Shown here: one piece after another, positions 9,803 to 54,630 of the stretch | Position numbering within the stretch: the first letter of the stretch is position 1 | Layout: each line of letters starts with the position of its first letter | Assembly: GCA_004335835.1 (NCBI GenBank) | Contig: RWJK01001645.1 | Coordinates: 13,620 to 77,619, forward strand | From: Scenedesmus sp. ARA3 | Taxonomy: Eukaryota; Chlorophyta; Chlorophyceae; Sphaeropleales; Scenedesmaceae | Direction of reading: 5' to 3' | DNA: 64,000 nucleotides | Translations under genes and position numbers: made by a program | Notes under the pieces: generated by a model | What the model was told of the DNA's origin: nothing | Databases searched by the model: none | The model's input: the letters and a program-made list of their open reading frames with translations, nothing else

Positions 9803-11570
9803 ATGCAATCGCACACGAGCATCTCGCAGCTGAAAGAGTGGGCAGACAAACACAAGTGTGCGCAGCCTACCTACGCCTGCACTGGGCCCGTCGGACAACC
9901 CTCAAGTTGGCACTGTAGAGCGGTGCTGCTTGTGCCCTCACCTGCTGCTGCAAGTGGATTCAACTCGCTAACAGCAGATGGGGCAGGCAAGACCAAGCAG
10001 GAGGCCAAGACTGCAGCAGCAGCATCGCTATTGATGCAACTACAGCAGGGCCTGCACTACACAGCAGCAGCAGCAGCAACAACCAACAGCAGCAGCACAC
10101 AGCAGCAGGCAGCAGCACCAAGCATCAGCTGCATCAACCAGCTAACAGAGTTCCTGCTAGCACATGGCAGAGGGGGCTTCCAAATATCATACAGTGATGC
10201 TGCACGTGTGCCAGGCACGCCCGATCACAGACCACAGTGGACAGTATATGCACAGCTGCTCCAGATGAACAGAAGCAGCAGTAGCAGCAGCAGCAACCCT
10301 AAGTTAACAGCTGCTGGCACTGGGCCAACAAGGTCAGGGGCAAAGCATGCAGCAGCTGCTGCAATGCTGCTGCACGAAGACTTTGCCAGCCTCTTTGCAG
10401 GAAGTGCTAGTGCATCCGCTGCGCTGTCAGCAGCGGCCGCAGCAGCCAACGCCGCAGCAACGCCGGTACCGCAAGCAGACGGCGCAGCAGCAGTAGCACG
10501 CGCGAGGCCTGTACAACCAGCAGATGCAGCAGCAGCTGCAGCAGCGGCAGCAGCAGCAGCGCCGGCAGCAGCAGCAGCGCCCAACTACAAGAACAGGCTG
10601 CAGGAGCTCATGCAGAAAGCAGCCAGCAAACGGCTGCTGGGATATGACGGCTGGGGGCTGCCTACATACAGGTACCCTCGCAGCTGTGTTAGTGTTATTG
10701 TTATCTTATTTTACTGTTAATTTGCATGCTATGCTGCTGTGTTTGCTGCTGCATCCTTGTCTTGTCGACAGCTGCCAACTTGCAGGTGCCGCTGCTGGCA
10801 TATATACACCTGCTCTGCTGCTGTACTTGCTTCATACCTGCTGCCTTTGTTATAGCCTGTGTTGTGTAATACCCGCAGCACCAAGCGCAGCTGTTAGGGC
10901 CATCCCACTATGTTTACCTCCACAGTCACCCTGCACAGCCCTGCCTTGCATGTTCTTGTACACACCAACCTCCCGTTTTTGCTGCAGCACCAAGCGCAGC
11001 TGTGAGGGCCAGCCCACCATGTTCACCTCCACAACCACGCTGCATAGCCCTCACTTGCATGTTCTTTACACACCAACCTCCCTTTTCTGCTGCAGCACCA
11101 AGCGTAGCTTTGAGGGCCAGCCCAACATGTTCACCTCCACAGTCACCCTGCACGGCTCACTTCTACGTGCATCACACACAAGCCCCCTGCGCACCAACGT
11201 TTTATTTGTGACCACGCACCAACCCCGTCTGCGCTGACTCAGGCACATGTGCGCTGGCCCCGCCCGCACCTGCTGACTTGCCGCATTTCCTCTCACATCC
11301 ATCTGCAGCACCAAGCGCAGCTTTGAGGGCCAGCCCACTATGTTCACCTCCACAGTCACGCTGCACGGCCCTACAGGGCCCTGCTCCCTGACAGGCAGCC
11401 AGCCGCACCCCTCAAAGAAAGAGGCGGAGCAGCACGCAGCGCAGCTGATGCTGCAGCAGCTGCAGCCGGACATGCTCGCTGCCCAGGAGCAGCAGGCTGG
11501 CTTGAATGAGGCAGGCAGGCTGCAGGCGGCGTTGCAGGGAGCAGCGCAGCAGGTGCAGGTCAGAGAGTAG
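9803..11570 (+). CDS. triple dsRNA-binding-domain protein
   Basis: Two exons, 9803-10671 and 11309-11570, give an open frame of 376 residues. dsRBD1 starts at QLKEWADKHKCAQPTYACTG and ends at KTKQEAKTAAAASLLMQL. dsRBD2 runs from CINQLTEFLLAHG to SGAKHAAAAAMLLHEDF. dsRBD3 starts in exon 1 (NYKNRLQELMQKAASK, GWGLPTY) and continues in exon 2 (FTSTVTLHG, then SKKEAEQHAAQLMLQQL). Ala/Gln/Ser linkers separate the domains. No catalytic domain is seen, so a DRB/HYL1-like cofactor of small-RNA processing is plausible but inferred. The intron falls inside dsRBD3. The ATG at 9803 is preferred because the frame further upstream has no ATG. Confidence 0.85.
10870..11370 (+). repeat. four copies of the dsRBD3 exon start
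   Basis: The stretch beginning AGCACCAAGCGCAGCT and coding STKRSFEGQPTMFTST occurs at about 10877, 10983, 11092 and 11309 with its acceptor. Only the last continues to the end of the gene. The intervening sequence is also repeated. Confidence 0.85.
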
Positions 11571-15001: not shown

Positions 15002-17499
15002 CCCAAGAAGCCTGCTGGGGCAGGCAGCAGGAAGCGCACTGCAGCAGCAGCAGCAGCAGCAGCAGCTGATGATGTGCCTGGTAGCCAGGGCGATGCTGCT
15101 GCTGCTGCTGCTGCTCCTGCAAAGCGTGGCTGTGGTGGTGCAGCAGGCAGCGGCAGCAGCAAGGCGAAGCAGGAGTACATGCCTCGCGCTGGCACTGCCA
15201 ACTATGCATTCATGGTGGCAATGTATCTGGTGAGCTGCTGTGTGCTGCTTTGGTTAAATATGTTCCAACGTGTGTGCTGGCCTGCTGTGAGCTGGCACTG
15301 CCCAACTATGCGTTCATGGTTGCAATGGCAATGTACGTGGTGAGCTGCTGTTTCGTGTTTAGTATAGCTGTGTCTCCGGCTGCTGTTGTGCCACACTGTC
15401 CGTGGAACTGCGGTGCCAAATACGCATTCATGGTGGCAATGTACCTGGTGAGCCGCTGTGTGCTGCTGTGGATAATATGTTGCAGTGTGTGCTGCCCTGC
15501 TGTGAGCTGGCACTGCCAACTATGCATTCATGGTGGCAATGTACCTGGTGAGCCGCTGTGTGCTGCTGTGGATAATATGTTGCAGTGTGTGTGCTGCCCT
15601 GCTGTGAGCTGGCACTGCCAACTATGCATTCATGGTGGCAATGTATCTGGTGAGCTTCTGTGTGCTGTTGTGGATAATATGTTCCAACGTGTGTGCTGCC
15701 TCGCTGTATGCTGTTACTGCCAACTATGCATTCATGGTGGCAATGTATCTGGTGAGCTGCTGCTTGATGTTGTAGATTGCTGTGGCTGCCTGCTGCTGGG
15801 CCACACTGTCCTTTTAACTGCAACGCCAGCTATGCATTCATGGTGGCATTGTACCTGGTGAGCTGCTTTTGGCTGTTGGCTGGATTCTGTTGGCTGTTGG
15901 CTGGATGCTGTGTCTGCCGATTGTATTCTCCCAGAGGCTGTTGTGGCAACTACGCGTTCATGGCGGCACTCTCTGTAGCTGCATCTTATCTCGCCAACGC
16001 AGCTGTGGCTGCTGTTCTGCTGCTGTTGCTGCTGCTGCTGTTCTGCTGCTGCTGTGCAGGCGCACCGCGCCACGACACCGCACACTGCCCAGAAAGGCCT
16101 GCTTGCAGCGGCTGAGGCAATTATGACACCCAGCTGCTTCAAGTTTGTCAATGTCTGCTGTTTCTGCTGCTGTGCAGGCGCACCGCACGGGCAGCCCCCA
16201 CATGACCAAGGAGACGCTCATTGCTGCTGCTGAGGCCAGCAGGCTGGCTGACGCGCCCATGCAGCACTACACAACAATGACAAGCTGTGGCTGGTATTCT
16301 GCTGCTGTGCAGGCACGCTGCGCCACGACACCGCACGTCACCCAGTGGGGCCTGCCTGCAGCGGTGATTGTGCACAACCCACAGCTGCTTCGTTCTTGAT
16401 CATGGCTGCTGTTCTACTGCTGCTGTGCAGGCGCACCGCACCGGCAGCCCCCACATGACCAAGGAGATGCTCATTGCTGCTGCTGAGGCCAGCAGGCTGG
16501 CTGATGCTCCGATTCAGGGCAACGCCAACGCCTGGGCTGGTGCCAGGGGCGCGGGAAACTGGTATGACGGCTGGAGCAACATCAAGGTATGTTGCACTTT
16601 GATGCTTTGCATGTCTTGCAAGGCATCAGTGCATGTAGTAAGTGTGTCATGTGAAGTGTTGTCACCGCAGCTGATGCGCTTACCAACATAACTGTGGCTG
16701 CTACTGCCGACATTCTGATGCCTTGCAGACCCTGGAGAACCGCGACACGCCGCTCATCCAGCGCTGGTCAAACCCTCTCAAGGTGTGTGGCTAAACCCTG
16801 ACCAGGCCCAGCTGAGGCAAACTGCCGCAGAACACTACACGTACATGCTGCCTTTGCTGATGCATACCTAGCAGTGCAGCGTGCATACGCTGCTGTCCTG
16901 CCGCAGAGCAACCAGCAAGCATGCGCAGTTGTGACCTGCCTTGAACTGGTTTGGCTTTGGTCAAACGTCCCTGCTGCTGCTGCTGCTGCTGCTGCAGATC
17001 CGGCTGACGTCAGCAGGCATGGGCTTGGCTGCGCGGCTGTACCAGCACGCCGTGGAGTCCGGCAAGATGCAACCTCACGCGGAGGTGCGAGCTGGGGCTC
17101 TGCATGCCACCGGTTATTGCAATCCATGTGAATGCTGAAGTAAGATGCATGTCTGGCAAAACAGCGATCTGCTGCAGTGCCTTGCGATCTGCTGCGTTTG
17201 CTGGCTGTGAATGTTGGAGTGTGGAGTCGCGCAAGATGCAGCCACACGCGCATGTGGGGGCTGGGGCATCTGCATGCCGCCAGTTCATTGTTGACAAACC
17301 GCGCGGCGTGTCTTGCTAGACAAATTGCATCCTGTAACAACCTGTATTTGCTGCTCTGCTGCTTGTGCGCATGGTGGGATGTGCCTGCTGCTGCTTGTTT
17401 CCAATGCTGTGTTGTGCAACTTTGCACATTTATGTCAAGGCATCATTGGTGCAGCACGTGTGCTATGCACGGTGTGTCTGCTGCAACTAGGCTCGCCCG

Positions 17500-34327: not shown

Positions 34328-34390
34328 TCACGCTGCTGGTGCTGTCAGCCTGGATCTGCTGCCTGCTCGGCGACCGAACAACTGCTGCTG

Positions 34391-34445
<55 letters not shown>

Positions 34446-37400
34446 AGCCATTGCGGCCACCACTTCATCCACACACTCTGCCAGCTTGCAGAAACCATAC
34501 CTGCATAATCAGCAGGCCGCTGCAACTGCTGCTGCTGCTGCGGCTGCTGCTGCTGAGCATCCTCCTCCACCTCCTCATCTGCCTCATATCCTGGCTGCTG
34601 CTGCCGCCACCACTGCAGCCGCTGCTGCTGCTCGCTGTGCCTTCGGGCCGCTTGCTTGATCCAGTGCTTGATGTGGCGCAGCTGTGTTCTGCGTGCTGCC
34701 AGCACTGAGGGAGGGTCCAGGGGGTGGCTGAACATCAAGTCAAGGTGGTGGGCGCCCTGCAGGCATGTTGTAGTAGCAGCAGCAGCAGCAGCAGCAGCAG
34801 TATGACAAGCAGCCAGCACTGAGGGAGGGTCCAGGGGGTGGCTGAACATCAGGTCAAGGTGGTGTGCTCCCTGCAGGCATGCCAGCAGCAGCAGCAGCGG
34901 CAGCAGCAATCGTAGTGGCGGCATCGGTTGACCCCTGACAGTGCTCTGGCAATGTGTGCATGGTGTGAACTTGCACTAGACAGACTGCAGAGTCAAGGTG
35001 CTTGCTGTACATGCTGTGCATACTGTGCTGCGACTGTTTGACAGAGTTTTGTAAGCTGTGATCCGGCAATTTCACGTGCGATCCTTTACGACAATGACAA
35101 AGTCAGCCCGATGACAGGAAGAAAGCTGCTGTGCTGCCAGAGTCACCTTGATTCAGCCAGAACGCAACAGCAACAGCCTCCTGCCATGTAGTGGTAGCCA
35201 TACCACAAGCACTAGTAACGAATGGCTGCAAGCCCTACCTCTGGTATTACAACAGCCACCAGGCTCTTGCTCGCGTCCTCCATGACGCCCCCGCCATGCC
35301 AGGGGTCAAGCCATTGATGCAATGCATAACTACGCATGCACTTCATCACACCACATCATCTGAACACTCCAAACATGGCAGGATTCTCACCTCTGGAATA
35401 ACAACAGCCACCAGGCTCTTGCTGACGTCATCCATCACACCCCAGCCATGCCAGGGGTCCAGACTGTGCTGGCATCATACAAGCTGCTGTGCTGCTTAAC
35501 AACACCCCACATCAGGAGAACAGACACCACCAAGCTGCTGTTGGTTCCAATTCCATGCAACCCATGTTCTGCACCATGTAAAGCCAGACACAACCAGCAT
35601 TTGAAAGTAGCTGACACCCTCACCTCAGGAATGACCACAGCCACCAGGCTTTTGCTGACATCATCCATGACGCCACCACCATGCCAGGGGTCAAGCAGGC
35701 CATTGCTGAACACAATGTTGCTGCCGGCAGCGATGTTACGGCCACCCCACTGCAGCAGCAGCAGCATTGTCATCATCAGCAGCCAGCAGTGCAGCAGTGC
35801 AGCAGTTGCAGCGGTTTCAGCAATGTAGCAGGGCAAATCCAGCAGCTGCAGCGGGCTGGGGAGCGCCAGCTGCAGCGAGCAGGGGAGCGGCAGCAGCAGC
35901 GATCGTCATGGCAGCACGGACAATGCCATTATTCAATGTCAAAACGCCAGCACTACACGCGTGCAGCGCTGCGAATGTCTATGTTTTGTATGCTGCTCTG
36001 CCGTTGACAAGTGCTGTATGTGTCATTGACGTGCAACCTGAACACACCCTGCTTCCATGCATTTGCACGCCATCCCTCGGTCAACAGACCGCCGCAGCTG
36101 TTGACTGGTGTATATGAACCAAAAACTCTGCGCTGCTGCTGCTGCTGCTGCTGCCCTGCTGACCTGTGTGACTGGCCAGGACTTTGAGCGTGGCGCCACG
36201 CCCCAGGTGCGCTTGCAGTTCTCGACAGCAGCGCTGAAATTGAAGGTGTCTTTGTAGAACATGTCACTCACTGCAGCAGACGGCATTTGGCACAAAATGT
36301 GATTGGCACATGGATTGTTGAGGTCACATTGGCAGCTCAGTAGCATTGCGCTGAACTTGAGGGTGTCTTTGTAGAACATGTCGCTCACTGCGCCGGCAGG
36401 AACGCAAGTAGGGCAGGTGTTGGTTGGCGCCGAGAGCAGTGTCCTCTAATGATCTATTGCCAGGCAGGCATCTGCTGTGCTGCAAAGAACACGCTGCAAC
36501 AGGCGGCAGCTGCACACCGCCATCATCGCACGCCTACTCACCGCCATCCTTGCTGGCTTGCATGACCATCTCAGTGCACCACTGGTAGTCCCAAAAATTA
36601 GCGTCCTCGTCAGACTCAGGGCTGGGGCCCACACTGGAGCTACATCAGTTATGTAATGGTGGCAGGCCGCCGCACACACATGTGCAGATTCTGCTGCCAC
36701 AGTCGACTTCCAGGCAGCGTCTAAATCCAAAGCAAAGAACATGCTGTAGCAGGTGACAAGTGCAACCAACCTTGGCCCAAATTCACTCACCGCCGTCCTT
36801 GCTGGCAGGCATGACCATCTCAGTGCACCACTGGTAGTCCCAAAAATTAGCGTCCTCGTCAGACTCAGGGCTGGGGCCAGAGCCAGGCGCCAGGCAGGGC
36901 AGGCTGCCACTGAAGTTATAAAGCACGCCAGCAGCCTGTGCCAGACCTGCAGGCAGTTGAGGGGAGGAGTGAGATGTTTGGGTTGGTTGTGATATAAAAG
37001 ACAACAGGGACAGGCACCAATTAAGGCAGGCTGCCGCTGCAGTTGTACAGTACACCAGCAGCCTGCGCCAGACCTGCAGGCAGCGTGAGGGGCAAACGGC
37101 AGTGTTGTAAGCAGACTGTTCTTGAAGTACTAGGGGCCAGGCAGGGCAGGCAGCCACTGAAATGATACAGCACGCCAGCAGCCTGTGCCAGGCCTGCAGG
37201 CAGCATTAATCAAGAAAAATGCAGATTTTGTAAGCAGACAGTTCTTGCTAAGGCGCCAGGCAGGGCAGGCTGCCACTGAAGTTGTACGGTACACCAGCAG
37301 CCTGCGCGAGGCCTGCAGGCAGCATTAGGAGAAAAGGCAAGTGTTGTGGGCGGACAATTGCTTCAATGGCGCAATGAGCCAGATTGGGCAGGCTGCCACT

Positions 37401-39297
37401 ACACTTGTACAGCACGCCAGCAGCCTGCTTTAGGCCTGCAGGCAGCATGAGGGGCGAAACGGCAGTGTACTGAGCACATGTTCTGTATAAAAAGCGCCAG
37501 GCGCCAGGCAAGTCAGTCTGCCACTGAAGTTGTACAGCAAGCCGGCAGCCTGCGCGAGGTCTGCAGGCAGCATTAGGAAAAAAGGCAAATGTTGTGGGTG
37601 GAAAATTGCTTCCACGGCGCAAGGAGCCAGGTCAGGTAGGCTGCCACTGCATTTGTACAGCACGCCGGCAGCCTGCGCGAGGCCTGCAGGCAGCATGAGG
37701 GGAGCACAGAAAAGTTTGGGTTAGTTGTGTGTGCGAAAAGGAACGGGGGCAGGCACCAGTCAAGCAATTTGCCGCTAAAGTTGTACAGCACGCTAGCAGC
37801 CTGCGCCTGGCGTGCATACAGCATGAGATAGTGTTGTTTCTGACAGTGGCCACCGATCAAGGGTGTGCTGTCAACTCATGCAAGTGCTGTCAGCTCATGC
37901 TTGGCTTCCTTGTGGCAGTATATATGATGGTTTTGTGCATGATGGTGAAAGTTGCATACACAACACAGTACATGATACAGATACTACAACGGCTCACCCT
38001 CCATGAACCATGGCCCGTCAGAAGTGCCCCTGCTCAGCAATCAACCTAGGAGTGCCACACAAACCCCATGTAACACACATTGAACCATAAAGCACAAGCA
38101 GCTCACCCTCCATGAGTCTTGGGCCATCCAGGGTGCCCCTGCTGACCATGATGTCACACGCCACACGCACCGGGTACGCCGGCAGGTCGCCCGCACCTGT
38201 ACAGCAGGCCACGCAGATGTTTTCAATAGGATTCGACTGCTTGTGCTGCAGTGCATTATACTACGGCAGCAAGCTGCTTGCACTGTTGATTGAAGTGCGC
38301 ATTGTTGTCTGACAGGCTGGCAGACAATACAAGGCACTAGGACATCGGAACATCTGTGCTTGGGCCGACAAATGGCTGTGTGCTGGGCTCACCGTTGGTC
38401 ATGTAGGAGGAGGGATAGGGGAAGTTGCCCATGGCAAGATAGTCCCTGCACACGGCAGCACAGCGGAAGAGTGATACAGTGTGACATGATAAACAAAGTT
38501 GACCAACAAGATCATGCTGTTGCAGCGGATGGGGGTAGGGGAAGTTGCCCATGGCCAGGTAGTCCCTGACCACAGCAGCACAGCGGAAGAGTGATACAGT
38601 ATGACATGATAAACAAAGTGTGACCAACAAGATTATGCTGTTGCAGCGGATGGGGGTAGGGGAAGTTGCCCATGGCCAGGTAGTCCCTGACCACAGCAGC
38701 ACAGCGGAAGAGTGATACAGTGTGACATGATAAACAAAGTGTGACCAACAAAATCATGCTGTTGCGGTGGATGGGGGTAGGGGAAGTTGCCCATGGCCAG
38801 GTACTCCCTGACCACAGCAGCACAGCAGCAGAGTGATACAGTATGACATGATAAACAAAGTTTGACCAACAAAATCATGCTGTTGCAGCGGATGGGGGTA
38901 GGGGAAGTTGCCCATGGCCAGGTAGTCCCTGCACGCAGCAGCACAGCGGAAGAGTGATACAGTGTGATATGATAAACAAAGTTGACCAACAAAATCATGC
39001 TGTTGCAGCGGATGGGGGTAGAGACAGCTGCCCATGGGCAGGTAGTCCCTGCGCACACCAGCCAAAAAAACCCACAGCGTATGTTACACAGCAAGGTTGA
39101 CCAACAAAATCATGTCGCTGCAGTGGATGGGAGCAAACAGGATCACCATGCACTCGCCAAGTACTCCCGCAGTGCCAGCACATCCTCCCTGCTGTTGAGG
39201 CGCGTCTCAGGGCACAGCCGCATGGCTGCGGCAATGTCGGCGCGGCCACCAGCGTATGCGCCCATCTGCATGAGCACCTGCAGCAACAAAAGCAACA

Positions 39298-39328
<31 letters not shown>

Positions 39329-42300
39329 GAGCAACTTGATGCACAGCAGAAATATGATCTCTCCTGTTGATTTGCTGGACATAGCAGTGCAGATGCTGAG
39401 GCAACGCACACCATACCACTTGCACGGGCAGCTGGCGCAACAACGGTACGTTGCTGAGCAGTGCTGCAGCAACGCCAACCAGCTGTCATATTTGTTCCTG
39501 AGCAACACCTCATCTTGCCACGTGCAAAAACAAATATCACCCTGAACAAGGCAGGGCGCCGCACCTCCCATGCCCGCCGCACTGTCTGCACGCAGCCGGG
39601 CGCCGCGCCCGCCTCCGGTGTTGCATCATACGTCACGCCTTTGGCAAAAGCCAGCTCGTCAAACGGAGGGTCCTGAGCACACACGGCAGCGACGGCAGCA
39701 ACTGAGACAAGCTATGGTGTCAGCAGTAACCACCAACCTACCCACCATTTCGCAAACCTGCATTGCTATCGGCTGTGCTGCAGAGTTATGAAGAGCAGCT
39801 GGGTTTGTAAGAGTGCAAACATGCTGGACCCTTAGGGATCCCTGCACAACCAGCAGCCGCCGCACCTGCCCGTAGAAGTTCCAGATGGGTGCTGAGGCAG
39901 CGATGGCACCATCCAGCAGGTGCGGGTACTTGAGCCGCATCCAGGCAGCAAGCATGCCGCCTGCAAGATATAGGACGCATGATCAAGCAAGCAGACATGA
40001 CGCACAAAGATGAAGCTGTCTGGATGTAAAAGTTCAGGGACAGAAAGGCTTGTCGAGAGCATGGCAAACACAGCAGGTGCGGATACTTGAGCCGCATCCA
40101 GGCAGCAAGCATGCCACCTGCAAGATATAAGACAAATGATCAAGCAAGAACACATGACACACAAATGAGAAGCTGTCTGAATGTGAAACTTGAGGGACAG
40201 AAAGGCTTGTCAAGAGCATGGCATACACAGCAGGTGCGGGTACTGGAGCCGCATCCAGGCAGCCAGCATGCCACCTGCAAGATATAGGATAAATGATCCA
40301 TTGAGGCATGGCAAGGCTGATCGGAAGCATGGCATATGCAGCAGGTGCGGGTACTTGAGCCGCATCCAGGCAGCAAGCATGCCGCCTGCAAGACAAAACA
40401 CGTGATCAAGCAAGCAGACATGACGCACAAATGAGAAGCTAACTGTATGTGAAAGTTGAGGGACAGAAAGGCCTTTCAGAAGCATGGCACACACAGCACG
40501 TGCGGGTACTTGAGCCGCATCCAGGCAGCAAGCATGCCGCCTGGCCGCAGCTGCAGCAGCAGCAGCAGCAGCAGCAGCAGACGCAGCAGCAGCAACGAAT
40601 GGCAAGGTTGTGGCGCAGAAATAGCAGGACATGGGCAGTTGCAACTCCCTCATGTTCATGCTCAGATACAGTTTTATAAGTGAACGTTCTGCTTGGCTTG
40701 GTAGCACTAGGGTTGCTGCGGAAGCAGCTAAAGCATTCACACAAGGCAGCTATAACAGCAATGCTCTGCCTACAGCGCACACTCACCATAGCTAACACAG
40801 CAAATGCAGGGGCATGATCCACAGCAGCAGCAGGAGCAGAAGCAGCAGCAGCAGCAGCAGGGCAGCCGAGGTGGAGTCAGCGCGTGTCATTCAAGGACAC
40901 ATGTGTGACATGTGCAGCGAGCAAGTACTTTGCAGTGATGCAGCAAGCTCATCAAACACGCGCTTGATTTCTGTTCAGATTGGCCGTCATATGCATACAC
41001 CCAGGCTCAAAACATGCTGCATGTGCCCCAGCAGGTTTCCTTCTGCGTGGCTCTGTGTCCAGGCAATCGCCACACTTTGTTGTGCAGGTCAGGAAACAGG
41101 TACAAGTGCGCAACGGCCCGCCTGGGCTGCAAAGCTGTGGGCACACGCCCATCACGGCTGTATGGCTGTCGGTAGCACGCACCTGCCCCCAAAGCCGATG
41201 ACTGCGCTCTGCTGTGCGCCAGGCCATGCTGCTTTGACCTCCTGGATGACCTCGGCATAGTCTGCGGCAGCAGCCGCAGCAGCAGCAGCAGGCATGCAGG
41301 CAATCCTTGTCAGCGCATGTCAGTCAGCGCAACAGCTAAGTAGCGACAACAGACTTACAGCTTGACAAGCATGTGCGGCAAGGTTGATGGTCTGCATTGT
41401 TGGGTTGTCATGCACGCCACCCGCACTAACATACATGCTGTGTGGACCAAGCAAAGTCAGCAGCTGCCAGAATCAACACATCCATAAGATGTTTCTCATG
41501 CCACACAGTTGCCTTGACTGCTGAACGACATCGATTTGGGGTGGTTTGCTTCAAATCGTACGGCAGCATCTACACTGCCTGTCACCTGCCAGGGCCTGCT
41601 CTGCGGTGAGGTAGCCCATGCCACACTGCCGCGTTAACTACTCAGAAATACTAAGGTTTAAGTCACATCGTACGGCTGCATCCACTCCGCCAGTCACCTG
41701 CGAGGGCCTGCTTCACTAAGAGGTAGCCCATGCAACACTGTTGCCGTGATTGCTGAAAATAACAAGTTCTCATTGTTAGGCTGCATCTACACCGCCTGTC
41801 ACCTGCCAGGGCTGCTCTGCAGTGAGGTAGCCCATGCCACACTGTCACGTCGACTGCTCAAAAATACTAAGGTCTACGTCACATCATATTGCTGCATCTA
41901 CACCGCCTGTCACCTGCCAGGGCCTGCTCTGCGGTGTGGTAGCCCATGCCACACTGGTGCAGTGATTGCTCAGAAATGCTCAGGTCTAAGTCACAACATA
42001 TGGCTGCATCTACACCGCCTGTCACCTGCCAGGGCCTGCTCAACAACCACGTGTCTTGCTGAAAGCCAGCATGCATTCTGTCTGCCACCAGCCAAGGCCC
42101 GCTCAACAACCAAGAAATCAATAGAACAATCATGCCAACCGCCAGTCACCTGCCAAGGCCCGCTCAACAACCAAGAAATCAATAGAACAGTCATGCCAAC
42201 CGCCAGTCACCTGCCAGGGCCTGCTCTGCGGTGAGGTAGCCCTTGTGCTTGAGCACGTCAGCCCCCCATGGCTTGGACTGGCCATAGTACCTGGCAGGCA

Positions 42301-47912: not shown

Positions 47913-50900
47913 GTGCTGGTGCTGCAGCTGGTGTTGATGCTGCTGAGGCTGCTGGCGTGCCGATTGTGTACGGCACTGCTGACCTGGCGCTGCGGCACAG
48001 AGCGCGGCTGCAGGCGGGGCAGACGGTGCTGGTGCTGGGGGCCAGCGGCGGCGTGGGCACAGCAGCAGTGCAGGTGGGGCACATGAGAGCCATAACTCGC
48101 CAGGCATGCGGTCTATAAGGCGGGAAGAGCTTGTTGGTTGTATGGGTTGAAGCTGGAGGCTGGGGGCCAGGGGCGGCGTGGGCACAGCAGCAGTGCATGT
48201 GGGGCGTGAACAGAATGTGATGGGAAGCGGAACTGTGGGGCCTGAAAGTGCTGTTTGCAGGGTGTGCAGCTGGGAACTACCAGGTCAGTTCGTCCTGCAA
48301 TGCTGTGCAGCATGTACAGCTGCATTGCTTGCAGGTGAACGGCTGTGCATGTACCATGCCTAAAAAATTAGTGTTACAGCTGCGCGTATGACTGAGAGCG
48401 GCCGGCGCACACGACCTTATTGCATTACCTATGCGTGCTGCACAGATGCTGACAAACAGAGCTGTCCATTCTAGACATGATCTGACAAACACGTGTTTTC
48501 TGTGCTGCGTTCTTACCACGATGTTTGCAGATCTCCAAGCTGCTGGGTGCGCGGGTGGTGGCACCATGCACTGCTACATCAGTGTGAAGTTCGCTTCGTT
48601 TGGGCTTGATATTCATGTTTTCCATGGCGTTTGCAGATTTCCAAGCTGCTGGGTGCGCGGGTGGTGGCTGTCACCTCTGGCGCTGACAAGGCAGCCTACC
48701 TGGCGCAGCTGGGAGCGGATGCAGTGGTGGAAACGGCAGCGCCAGCAGCAGCGGGGCAGCGGCTACACAAGCTCATTGCAGCAGCAGCACCAAAAGGTGA
48801 GCCGGCCAATGAAATGATTGCAGGCTGTTTGTAGGTTTGCAAATGTTCAATGCTCTGTTTCATCCAGCACCATGCATGCCTTCTGCTGAGATTCCATGTG
48901 CCTGGCACAGTTGCACCAACATGCTGCTGCCGCTGCTGCTGCCGCCCAGGTGTTGATGTGGTGTTCGACCCTGTTGTCGGGCAGGCGCTGTTTGGATGCT
49001 GAGCTAGCATACTTGTGCTGCTGCTGCTGCTGCCACTGCTGCTGTTGCTGCTGCTGCCGCCGCTCAGGCGTTGATGTGGTGTTCGACCCCGTTGGCGGCC
49101 AGGCGCTGTTTGAGTCGCTCAAGTGTGTGGCGTGGGGCGCGCAGTACCTGGTCATTGGCTTCGCAGCAGGAGACATTCCAAAGGTGGGCTTGCTAATCAA
49201 GCAGGCGTTTGGTCCGAGGTTGCATAGCCTTGTGAAGCACATGCGACTGTTGTGTGGCGTGGGGCGCGCAGTACCTGGTCATTGGCTTTGCAGCAGGAGA
49301 CATCCCAAAGGTGGGCTTGCTAATCAAGCCATTACAGGCGTTTGGTCCGAGGTTGCATAGCCTTGTGAACAACATGCGATTGTTGTGTGGCGTGGGGCGC
49401 ACAGTACCTGGTCATTGGCTTTGCAGCAGGAGACATCCCAAAGGTGGGCTTGCCAGTCAAGTGCCTAAGCAGCTGCACAGCATTTCGGGTTTTGTATTTG
49501 ATTGTTGGGTGCATGGGGCGCGCAGTACCTGGTCATAGGCTTTGCAGCAGGAGACATCCCAAAGGTGCGAAGACAGTCAAGCCATTACAGGCGTTTGGTC
49601 CGAGGTCGCATAGCTTTGTGACTATTGCCACGTTCAATGCAAAACTTGTGGCGGCTCAAGAGTGGAAGGACATGATGCCAGTCAGAGGTGTGATTAGCAA
49701 TGCAGATTGACGGTTGCGTGCATGGGGCGCACAGTACCTGGTCATAGGCTTCGCAGCAGGAGACATCCCCAAGGTGGGCAGCTGCGCACTTCGCGATATG
49801 CAACCGCTCATATGCTTCTGTCCCCAACACGCATTCTGTCTGCACAGGGTGTTGCCTTGGGTGCTTTTTTTCTTGAATTGGCGTGTGGTGTGGTGCAGCA
49901 GCCGTGACTGCAACACTGTTGGGAGCAGCATCATGCCATGCCAGCAGGATGCGATCAGCAGGCCATGTATCATGACCACACACAGCACTGGCACCATGTG
50001 CTGACACACCACGTTTGGAAAACCCTGCATCACCAATTGTTGCATTGTGATGTGCCGCAGGTGCCGGCCAACTTGCTGCTGGTCAAGAACACCACCATGC
50101 ATGGCATCTTTTGGGGCAGCTACATGATGAAAGATTATAAAGTTCTGGCAGATGGTCTGCGGCAGGTGCTGCAGTGGGCGGGGGAGGGCAGGCTGACGCT
50201 GCAGGTGTCGCACAGGTGAGGGGTGGGTGTGGGTTAAGAACACAGGGTTTTGCGCAGGATACTGCAGTATACTGCAGTAAAGCAGTGTCCACCCGCATTG
50301 AGGGTGAGCAAGTGCCACACTGTGCAGGGCAGAGGAAATACAGCTGCAGGTGTGTTTTGGGGCGGCTACATGATGAAAGACTACAACGTGCTGGCTGATG
50401 GTCTGCGGCAGGTGTTGGAGTGGGCGGGGCAGGGCAGGCTGACGCTGCAGGTGTCGCACAGGTGAGGTTTGCATTGATATTCTGCTTGATACGATTATAT
50501 TGGGTTCTGCAGGCAAGAAGCGCTGCAAGTAGCACTGCAGATCAGGCTGCGACAGGTACTGCAGTTGGCAGGGCAGGGTTGGCTGACGCTGCAGGTGTCG
50601 CACAGGTGAGAGCTGGGTGTCGTCACCTCATAGGGCTCTGAGAAGGATTTGGTCCCTCTAAAAGTTGGTTCCGTCGTGATGGATAGGGCGAGAGGCTGTT
50701 ATTGCAGGACTGACACATGTCTGATGCATGGTTGTTGGTGACAAAAGAGCTTGATTTGTGGCTGTGATAGCGCTCAGAACCCAGCAGCAAGTGACGTGCT
50801 GCCCATGTCAATGGCCTGCAGCAACTGCCAGCAAAGGGCTGGCTGAAACTGACTTGATAGCACTTGTCTTCACAGGCACGACAGGTGTTCAGAAACACAC

Positions 50901-53302: not shown

Positions 53303-54630
53303 GCTGGATGTGCAGTGAGGAGTTTTGGGTGTACGCATGGTTTGTGTTGCATGTGCTGAAGTTGACTCTAGTATGCATCTGCTGCTGCAAGCTTTTCCAT
53401 CTGTTTGCTTGCTAACGGCTACTATGGCGCTGCAGTGAAACTTTGACAGCCGCAGACAAAACAACCGACATTTATACCTGTGCTGCACTGCTCAAACCTT
53501 CCACCTGACAGGTACCAGGAACACCAGGCCTCCGACATCTCTGCAATGAAGCCCTCAACAGCTGCAGCATACACCCGGTCCACTACATGCACTGAACGCG
53601 TGGCTGCGCTGTTTGACTTCTCAAAATGCGCACAGGTACCAAGACTACCAGGCCTCTGACATCCCTGCAATCACAACCTTGTCCAGCAGATGGGCACTAA
53701 ACAATATGCTGCACTTCAACTCTTAACGGTACAGGTACCAGGACTACCAGGCCTCTGGCATATACGCAGTGAAGCCCTCATCAGCTGCAGCATACACCAG
53801 GTCCACTACATGCTAGACTGTCCATCTTTACATGCACTAAACTCTTGGCTGCGCTGTTTGATCCCTCATAACACGCACAGGTGCCAGGACTACCAGGCCC
53901 CTGACATCCCTGCATCACAACCTTGTCCAGCAGATGGGCACTAACACATGTACTGCACTTCAACCCTGAACCCTACAGGTACCAGGACTACCAGGCCTCT
54001 GACATCCCTGCAATCACAACGTTGTCCAGCAGATGGGCACTAAACAATATGCTGCACTTCAACTCTGAACCCTACAGGTACCAGGACTACCAGGCCTCTG
54101 ACATCCCTGCAGTAGAAGCAGCAGGCAGCCGTGTGCGTGTCATGGCAGGCCAACATGCTGGCACCAATGGCCCCATTGTCATGAAGAACCCGGGCATGTT
54201 ATATGACGTCATTTTGCAGCCGGGAGCAGCAGTGACGCTGCAGGTGCCACAGGGCTGGTCAGGGTTTGCGTATGTGTATGATGGCGCTGGCAGCATCAGC
54301 GGCAGTCCGGCTAAGATGCAGCACGCTTTGATGTTAGGTGCTGGTGACCACATCACTGCAGAAGCTGCTGCTGCTGCTGCCAGCTCAGCATTGGATTCGG
54401 CTGTGTCAGGTGTGTCAAGTGGCGGCGAAAGTAACGGTTACGGGCAGGGCGAGGGTTCAGGGTTGAAGTTCCTGCTGATTGCCGGGCAGCCGATTGGCGA
54501 GCCGATCGTGCAGCATGGGCCGTTTGTGATGAATAGCCAGCAGGAGATTGCGCAGGCTTTTGCTGACTATCAGGCTGGGCGGCTTCAGGACCCGCGGGAC
54601 AATGTGTGGGAGGGAGATGACGAGCTGTGA
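51706..54630 (+). CDS. pirin family protein with N-terminal membrane segment
   Basis: Five exons (51706-52053, 52382-52485, 52729-52795, 53107-53252 and 54078-54630) give 405 residues, all phases matching. The pirin cupin core is clear: [57 protein letters not shown], then [14 protein letters not shown]. The metal-ligand His residues of HPH and the VHSE block are present. The C-terminal cupin half follows ([30 protein letters not shown]). Ahead of the core is a basic stretch, a hydrophobic segment ([20 protein letters not shown]) and an Ala/Thr-rich linker, unlike typical soluble pirins. The ATG at 51706 is the first in frame. Pirins act as Fe-dependent regulators or quercetinase-like enzymes; the role here is not determined. 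Confidence 0.92.
53505..54125 (+). repeat. six copies of the [11 protein letters not shown] exon start
   Basis: The acceptor acag plus GTACCAGGACTACCAGGCC occurs near 53511, 53635, 53735, 53881, 53979 and 54078, with shared spacers (ttgtccagcagatgggcact). Only the last continues into the C-terminal exon. Confidence 0.9.

Follow-up and report, generated by a model that had tools for sequence, protein, structure and literature searches.

A five-nucleotide exon probably completes the nucleophile motif of an S28 peptidase gene in the green alga Scenedesmus sp. ARA3

Results

An S28 peptidase gene with 15 exons

The window analysed here, a 64,000-nucleotide stretch of the Scenedesmus sp. ARA3 genome, carries on its minus strand (43243-34328) a gene that we modelled with 15 exons, 14 introns that are all of the GT-AG type, and a reading frame of 625 amino acids without internal stop. 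Exons 1 to 4 lie at 43243-43031, 42927-42797, 42622-42548 and 42290-42211, and exons 8 to 13 at 39672-39565, 39277-39147, 38445-38393, 38196-38107, 36946-36791 and 36270-36164. Exon 14 (35749-35624) encodes an Asp motif, NGLLDPW, and exon 15 (34756-34328) a His motif, GAHHLDL, and the stop; exons 5 to 7 are treated below. A preliminary description of the locus had the 14 exons other than the shortest closing in frame, as we find them to do, but gave the protein 614 residues where we count 625 before the first stop.

Family and structure-relative comparisons were made with the first 537 residues, leaving out a Gln-rich C-terminal tail that is encoded by CAG repeats after the S28 domain (34382-34640, minus strand). 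The Peptidase_S28 profile PF05577 matched with 254.4 bits (2.5e-75) from position 2 to 432 of its 434 positions, a full-length domain far above the curated cut-off of 25. Human lysosomal Pro-X carboxypeptidase (PRCP, 3n2z) matched over nearly the whole domain at 8e-116, and so did DPP2 (3jyh and 4ebb), with values of 1.4e-97 and 1.8e-97. The PRCP and DPP2 alignments run without gap across the sequence GGSYGGM (Ser193), and the NGLLDPW Asp (NGxLDPW) and GAHHLDL His motifs line up with those of 3n2z and 3jyh. We take the Ser of GGSYGGM, the Asp of NGLLDPW and the His of GAHHLDL to be the catalytic residues. All three S28 motifs (GGSYGG, Asp and His) are thus present in the model, the nucleophile motif only when the micro-exon described below is included. 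Judged from the sequence, the gene appears to encode an intact S28 serine peptidase of the prolyl carboxypeptidase/DPP2 type, for which a proline-directed activity is predicted.

A five-nucleotide exon at the nucleophile

Exon 5 (41183..41261, minus strand) encodes ..VIGFGG and ends at 41183 with GGGGGCAG (..GGCAG) before gtgcgt, leaving the AG of a Ser codon. Exon 7 (39866..39960, minus strand) is preceded by cttgcag, starts at 39960 with GCGGCATG and reads GC GGC ATG.. (GMLAAWMRLKYPHLLDGAIAASAP). Between them, at 40787..40791 of the minus strand, the pentamer CTATG is bordered by gtgttag on one side and gtgagt on the other (TTAG/CTATG/GTGAGT), with phase 2 in and phase 1 out. It separates intron 5 (40792..41182, minus strand; 391 nt, gtgcgt...ttag) from intron 6 (39961..40786, minus strand; 826 nt, gtgagt...cttgcag). 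Joined to exons 5 and 7, CTATG completes the Ser codon with its first base, encodes the Tyr with the next three and opens the following Gly codon with its last, and so yields GGSYGGM. Lying between AG and GT, it falls within the definition of a micro-exon (an internal exon of 1-15 nt), and its inclusion restores the conserved frame together with the S28 motif. The preliminary description had placed CTATG, its ttag and gtgagt flanks, the end of exon 5 and the start of exon 7 exactly here, and its claim that the pentamer completes the S28 nucleophile motif is borne out by the in-frame model and the family alignments.

Skipping CTATG would join AG to GCGGC and shift the frame at once, as had also been claimed correctly: the product would stop after 228 amino acids, with 192 correct residues followed by 36 wrong ones. 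The stop falls within exon 8 and has seven junctions downstream of it. A stop with downstream junctions would mark the RNA for decay in most eukaryotes.

The preliminary description had argued that only an insert of 3n+2 nucleotides can join exons 5 and 7. CTATG fits this demand but is not alone in doing so: in the 1222-nt gap between the two exons we counted 100 AG-n-GT stretches (n up to 30), and 33 of these (inserts of 2-29 nt) reopen the frame. CTATG is the only one of the 33 that gives GGSYGGM. We scored the splice sites with a weight matrix trained on the 13 other donors and 13 other acceptors, a small set from the same gene. By this score CTATG ranks second among the 33 inserts, and the insert ranked first lacks the nucleophile motif. 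At 8.2, the micro-exon donor is a strong one (training donors, 5.3-8.6). Its acceptor is a weak TAG (2.5, against a training range of 5.3-13.0) in a gene whose 13 other acceptors are all CAG, a point that counts against the reading of CTATG as an exon.

Intron positions in other S28 genes of the genome

We searched the genome (87 Mb in 1567 contigs) for other S28 loci covering the nucleophile and found six: two in C1171 and one each in C707, C1339, C1053 and C1369. In the same genome, chlorophyll a/b-binding proteins gave 47 matches, which marks its owner as a photosynthetic eukaryote. All six S28 loci have Gly-Ser-Tyr at the nucleophile (GSYG or GSY). Four of them (both in C1171, C707 and C1339) carry a phase-1 intron with a gtgag donor at TAY-G/G, which matches the 3' border of the micro-exon, and hence the position and phase of intron 6, exactly. 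The next exon completes a Gly codon in the two C1171 loci and C1339 and an Ala codon in C707; in the second C1171 locus, we took the acceptor from the translation. The SYG/G intron is absent from C1053 and C1369; this also counts against our preferred explanation, the more so as C1053 is the closest S28 locus in sequence (36-58% identity over six matched pieces).

At the 5' border of the micro-exon the comparison is different, for AG/C carries no intron in any of the other six S28 loci, and the exact position of intron 5 is private to the window gene among the S28 loci. Introns do occur nearby. In C1053 (52000-57500), a Ser codon 24 nt (eight codons) before the nucleophile Ser is interrupted by a phase-2 intron, and C1369 (36500-38999) has a phase-1 intron 4 nt upstream of AG/C (..GGA-G/gtaag, then cag/GC-AGC-TAT), with GSYGGM inside one exon. 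The S28 loci of this genome thus have four intron positions in the 30 nt or so that surround the nucleophile. Since four of six loci share the 3' border and none has the AG/C intron, the micro-exon would be the 3' tip of a longer exon, produced where two neighbouring intron positions meet in one gene. A genome search with a 242-base part of intron 6 returned that part alone and thus gave no sign of an allelic or duplicate copy of the locus.

Tandem copies of half-exons

In intron 6 the beginning of exon 7 recurs four times as a decoy copy of 45-62 nt (40071..40540, minus strand), each with its own acceptor AG. The decoy exon starts lie at 40540, 40385, 40274 and 40117. The true acceptor at 39960 thus comes after four others, and CTATG could be joined in one and the same frame to any of the five. 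The decoys have acceptor scores of 4.8, 12.5, 10.3 and 9.7, compared with 10.3 for true exon 7; splicing to any of the four decoys followed by read-through would lead to a stop.

Such arrays are not limited to exon 7. Between 34700 and 42290 of the minus strand, tandem half-exon copies adjoin seven of the 15 exons (4, 7, 10, 12, 13, 14 and 15). We counted 23 copies at E up to 1e-4 once the matches of exons 1 and 15 that are due to CAG/CTG repeats had been dropped. By reading, the splice-site dinucleotide of the exon edge is kept in 22 of the 23 (the exception is at 37807), and none spans a whole exon. When the gene was compared with itself, all eight repeat clusters overlapped an exon. In a random placement that let each unit lie either entirely within an intron or over a single exon edge, all nine units straddled an exon edge in 186 of 20000 trials; the unit sizes are our own estimates, nine for the eight clusters.

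Tandem partial-exon copies were also seen in all six stretches from four TCP1/Cpn60 and class I tRNA synthetase genes (C584, C1400, C1492 and C1032), which had been chosen for their repeated family-search matches, so that six of six is no frequency. Within the window, further arrays with a unit of about 99-133 bases lie at 324-593, 10875-11153, 15188-15867, 49124-49621 and 53877-54111; some of their units, by eye, consist of an exon end with a gtgag-type donor or of a cag acceptor with an exon start. The partial-exon copies suggest a genome-wide habit. They are most simply read as tandem duplications that are tolerated, because copies with only one splice site can be skipped and therefore survive. 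We regard these arrays as an odder, less ordinary feature of the gene than the 5-nt exon, and no direct precedent for them was found in the open-access literature searched.

Alternative readings of the nucleophile region

The weak acceptor and the decoys together raise the question of splicing efficiency. The nucleophile could sit at a splicing bottleneck, formed by a 5-nt exon with a weak acceptor and then by five competing acceptors with almost identical exon starts, of which four would be dead-end decoys that arose when the beginning of exon 7 was duplicated in tandem. We consider this unlikely; if true, the yield of active enzyme would be set by splice-site competition, and the length of the array would be a mutable dial.

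A regulated switch, as the preliminary description had proposed, goes one step further: the weak acceptor would cause variable inclusion of the micro-exon, and the peptidase would be turned on and off by splicing. Because the acceptor is weak, there is some room for regulation, skipping both shifts the frame and removes the nucleophile, and the four decoy acceptors would compete. In Trichoderma Xlr2, a 20-nt micro-exon is reported to act as a glucose-dependent switch (PMC11121469). Nevertheless, skipping yields no in-frame product. A 228-aa frameshifted fragment points to loss of product rather than to a designed switch, and any frame-breaking exon, if skipped, gives plain loss of function. 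Moreover, most coding plant micro-exons are reported to be included in the main, with inclusion above 0.5 (PMC8831610; here and below, as given in the sections available). We found the switch unsupported and hold it to be quite improbable.

It is also conceivable that the gene is decaying, that the exon has lost bases and that the intronic CTATG is a product of chance. An AG-YTAYG-GT arrangement occurred in 32 of 5000 dinucleotide shuffles of the 1222-nt gap, which alone is not negligible, and the introns hold many decoy exon copies. However, AG-YTAYG with a complete GTRAGT donor occurred in none of the 5000 shuffles, the 14 other exons are in frame, the Asp and His motifs are present, and the 3' border of the micro-exon is an intron position in four of the six other S28 loci, so that decay seems very improbable. 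The splicing of a different small insert, such as the second 5-mer CCTGG (first base 41005), which likewise restores the frame to give GGSLGGM and retains G-x-S-x-G, is most improbable of all, given its GAG acceptor, its GTGTAT donor, its splice-site rank of 26 among the 33 inserts, and the Tyr kept after the nucleophile Ser in the six other S28 loci, PRCP and DPP2.

Origin of intron 5

Compared with the genome, intron 5 matched only itself and, through a CTG-rich stretch (query 303-383 at its widest), many places that have this stretch in common. An introner or transposon origin was rejected, as no family of whole introns appeared among the 40 of 138 candidates scored. Tandem duplication was likewise rejected for want of support. 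In comparisons that masked triplet runs, intron 5 and the sequence made up of exon 5 and the end of intron 4 gave a score of 41, which 28 of 400 shuffles reached; for the two exon/intron borders the score was 23 (165 of 400), and for intron 5 and intron 6 it was 29 (382 of 400). Given the introns of C1053 and C1369, the 5 nt could be what is left of an ancestral exon that measured 29 or 9 nt, but no remnant of a sliding exon of either length was seen at the window gene. That these comparisons brought to light no trace of the way in which intron 5 came about is a further point against the preferred explanation.

Discussion

We consider it highly probable that CTATG is genuine, a micro-exon that an intact S28 gene includes constitutively, and that it once formed the 3' end of a longer exon from which a later intron separated it. 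The ancestral exon would have ended in ..AGCTATG before gtgag, and an extra intron gained later at AG/CTATG would have severed the last 5 nt. Splicing would most likely proceed by intron definition and in two steps. Intron 5 would be removed first, leaving an 84-nt exon of ordinary kind whose strong GTGAGT donor would then serve to remove intron 6, bypassing the four decoy acceptors. Presumably required for any working transcript, the micro-exon is probably always included; if it were skipped, the product would be truncated and probably unstable rather than a regulated isoform.

Because the nucleophile motif hangs on five bases, automatic annotation very likely misses the exon and calls the gene broken or inactive. 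The locus also offers a case for the formation of micro-exons, one border being an intron position of four of six other S28 loci and the other being private, and the two further S28 loci with introns within 24 nt add to this case. The half-exon arrays, in turn, constitute a natural test of how the spliceosome chooses the true site among copies that are alike over tens of bases.

The algal protein has family membership and the nucleophile, Asp and His motifs in common with human PRCP (3n2z) and DPP2 (3jyh, 4ebb), by alignment, and differs in its Gln-rich C-terminal tail, which lies outside that comparison. For the micro-exon itself, no direct precedent in an S28 gene was found in the open-access literature searched, and S28 is not among the micro-exon families named in the available sections of PMC8831610. 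Tiny exons are, however, well documented in plants and known from green algae. In Chlamydomonas reinhardtii, 337 micro-exons of 1-15 nt were found by RNA-seq in 2.59% of genes (PMC8831610, Yu et al. 2022), and RT-PCR was used to check a rice transcript in which a 5-nt and a 12-nt exon adjoin, the combination known from Peptidase M1 genes (PMC8831610). The micro-exons of that study resemble CTATG in being internal, coding, not a multiple of three and located in a core domain motif; they were identified by RNA-seq, whereas the S28 micro-exon is known from sequence alone.

Peptidase M1 genes have a 5-nt (cluster 7) and a 12-nt (cluster 28) micro-exon (PMC8831610). The M1 5-nt exon also lies in a peptidase domain, but of another family than S28; the pair is found in Zygnema as well, where the accessible part of PMC11096116 reads it as gradual intronization. 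According to the same part, none of 45 conserved land-plant micro-exon tags occurs in Chlorophyta (PMC11096116), while one of the tags (cluster 10) is shared with Chlorella (PMC8831610). On these partial accounts, most algal micro-exons therefore seem to have been gained separately. Guo and Liu (2015; PMC4674806, in the text available) proposed intron definition with step-wise removal for the 1-nt exon of Arabidopsis APC11. APC11 thus offers a constitutive tiny exon with step-wise (recursive) splicing of the kind proposed here for the S28 micro-exon, and differs from it in exon size, gene and experimental proof. Five-base exons are already known, and the predicted exon of this S28 gene would be a further example.
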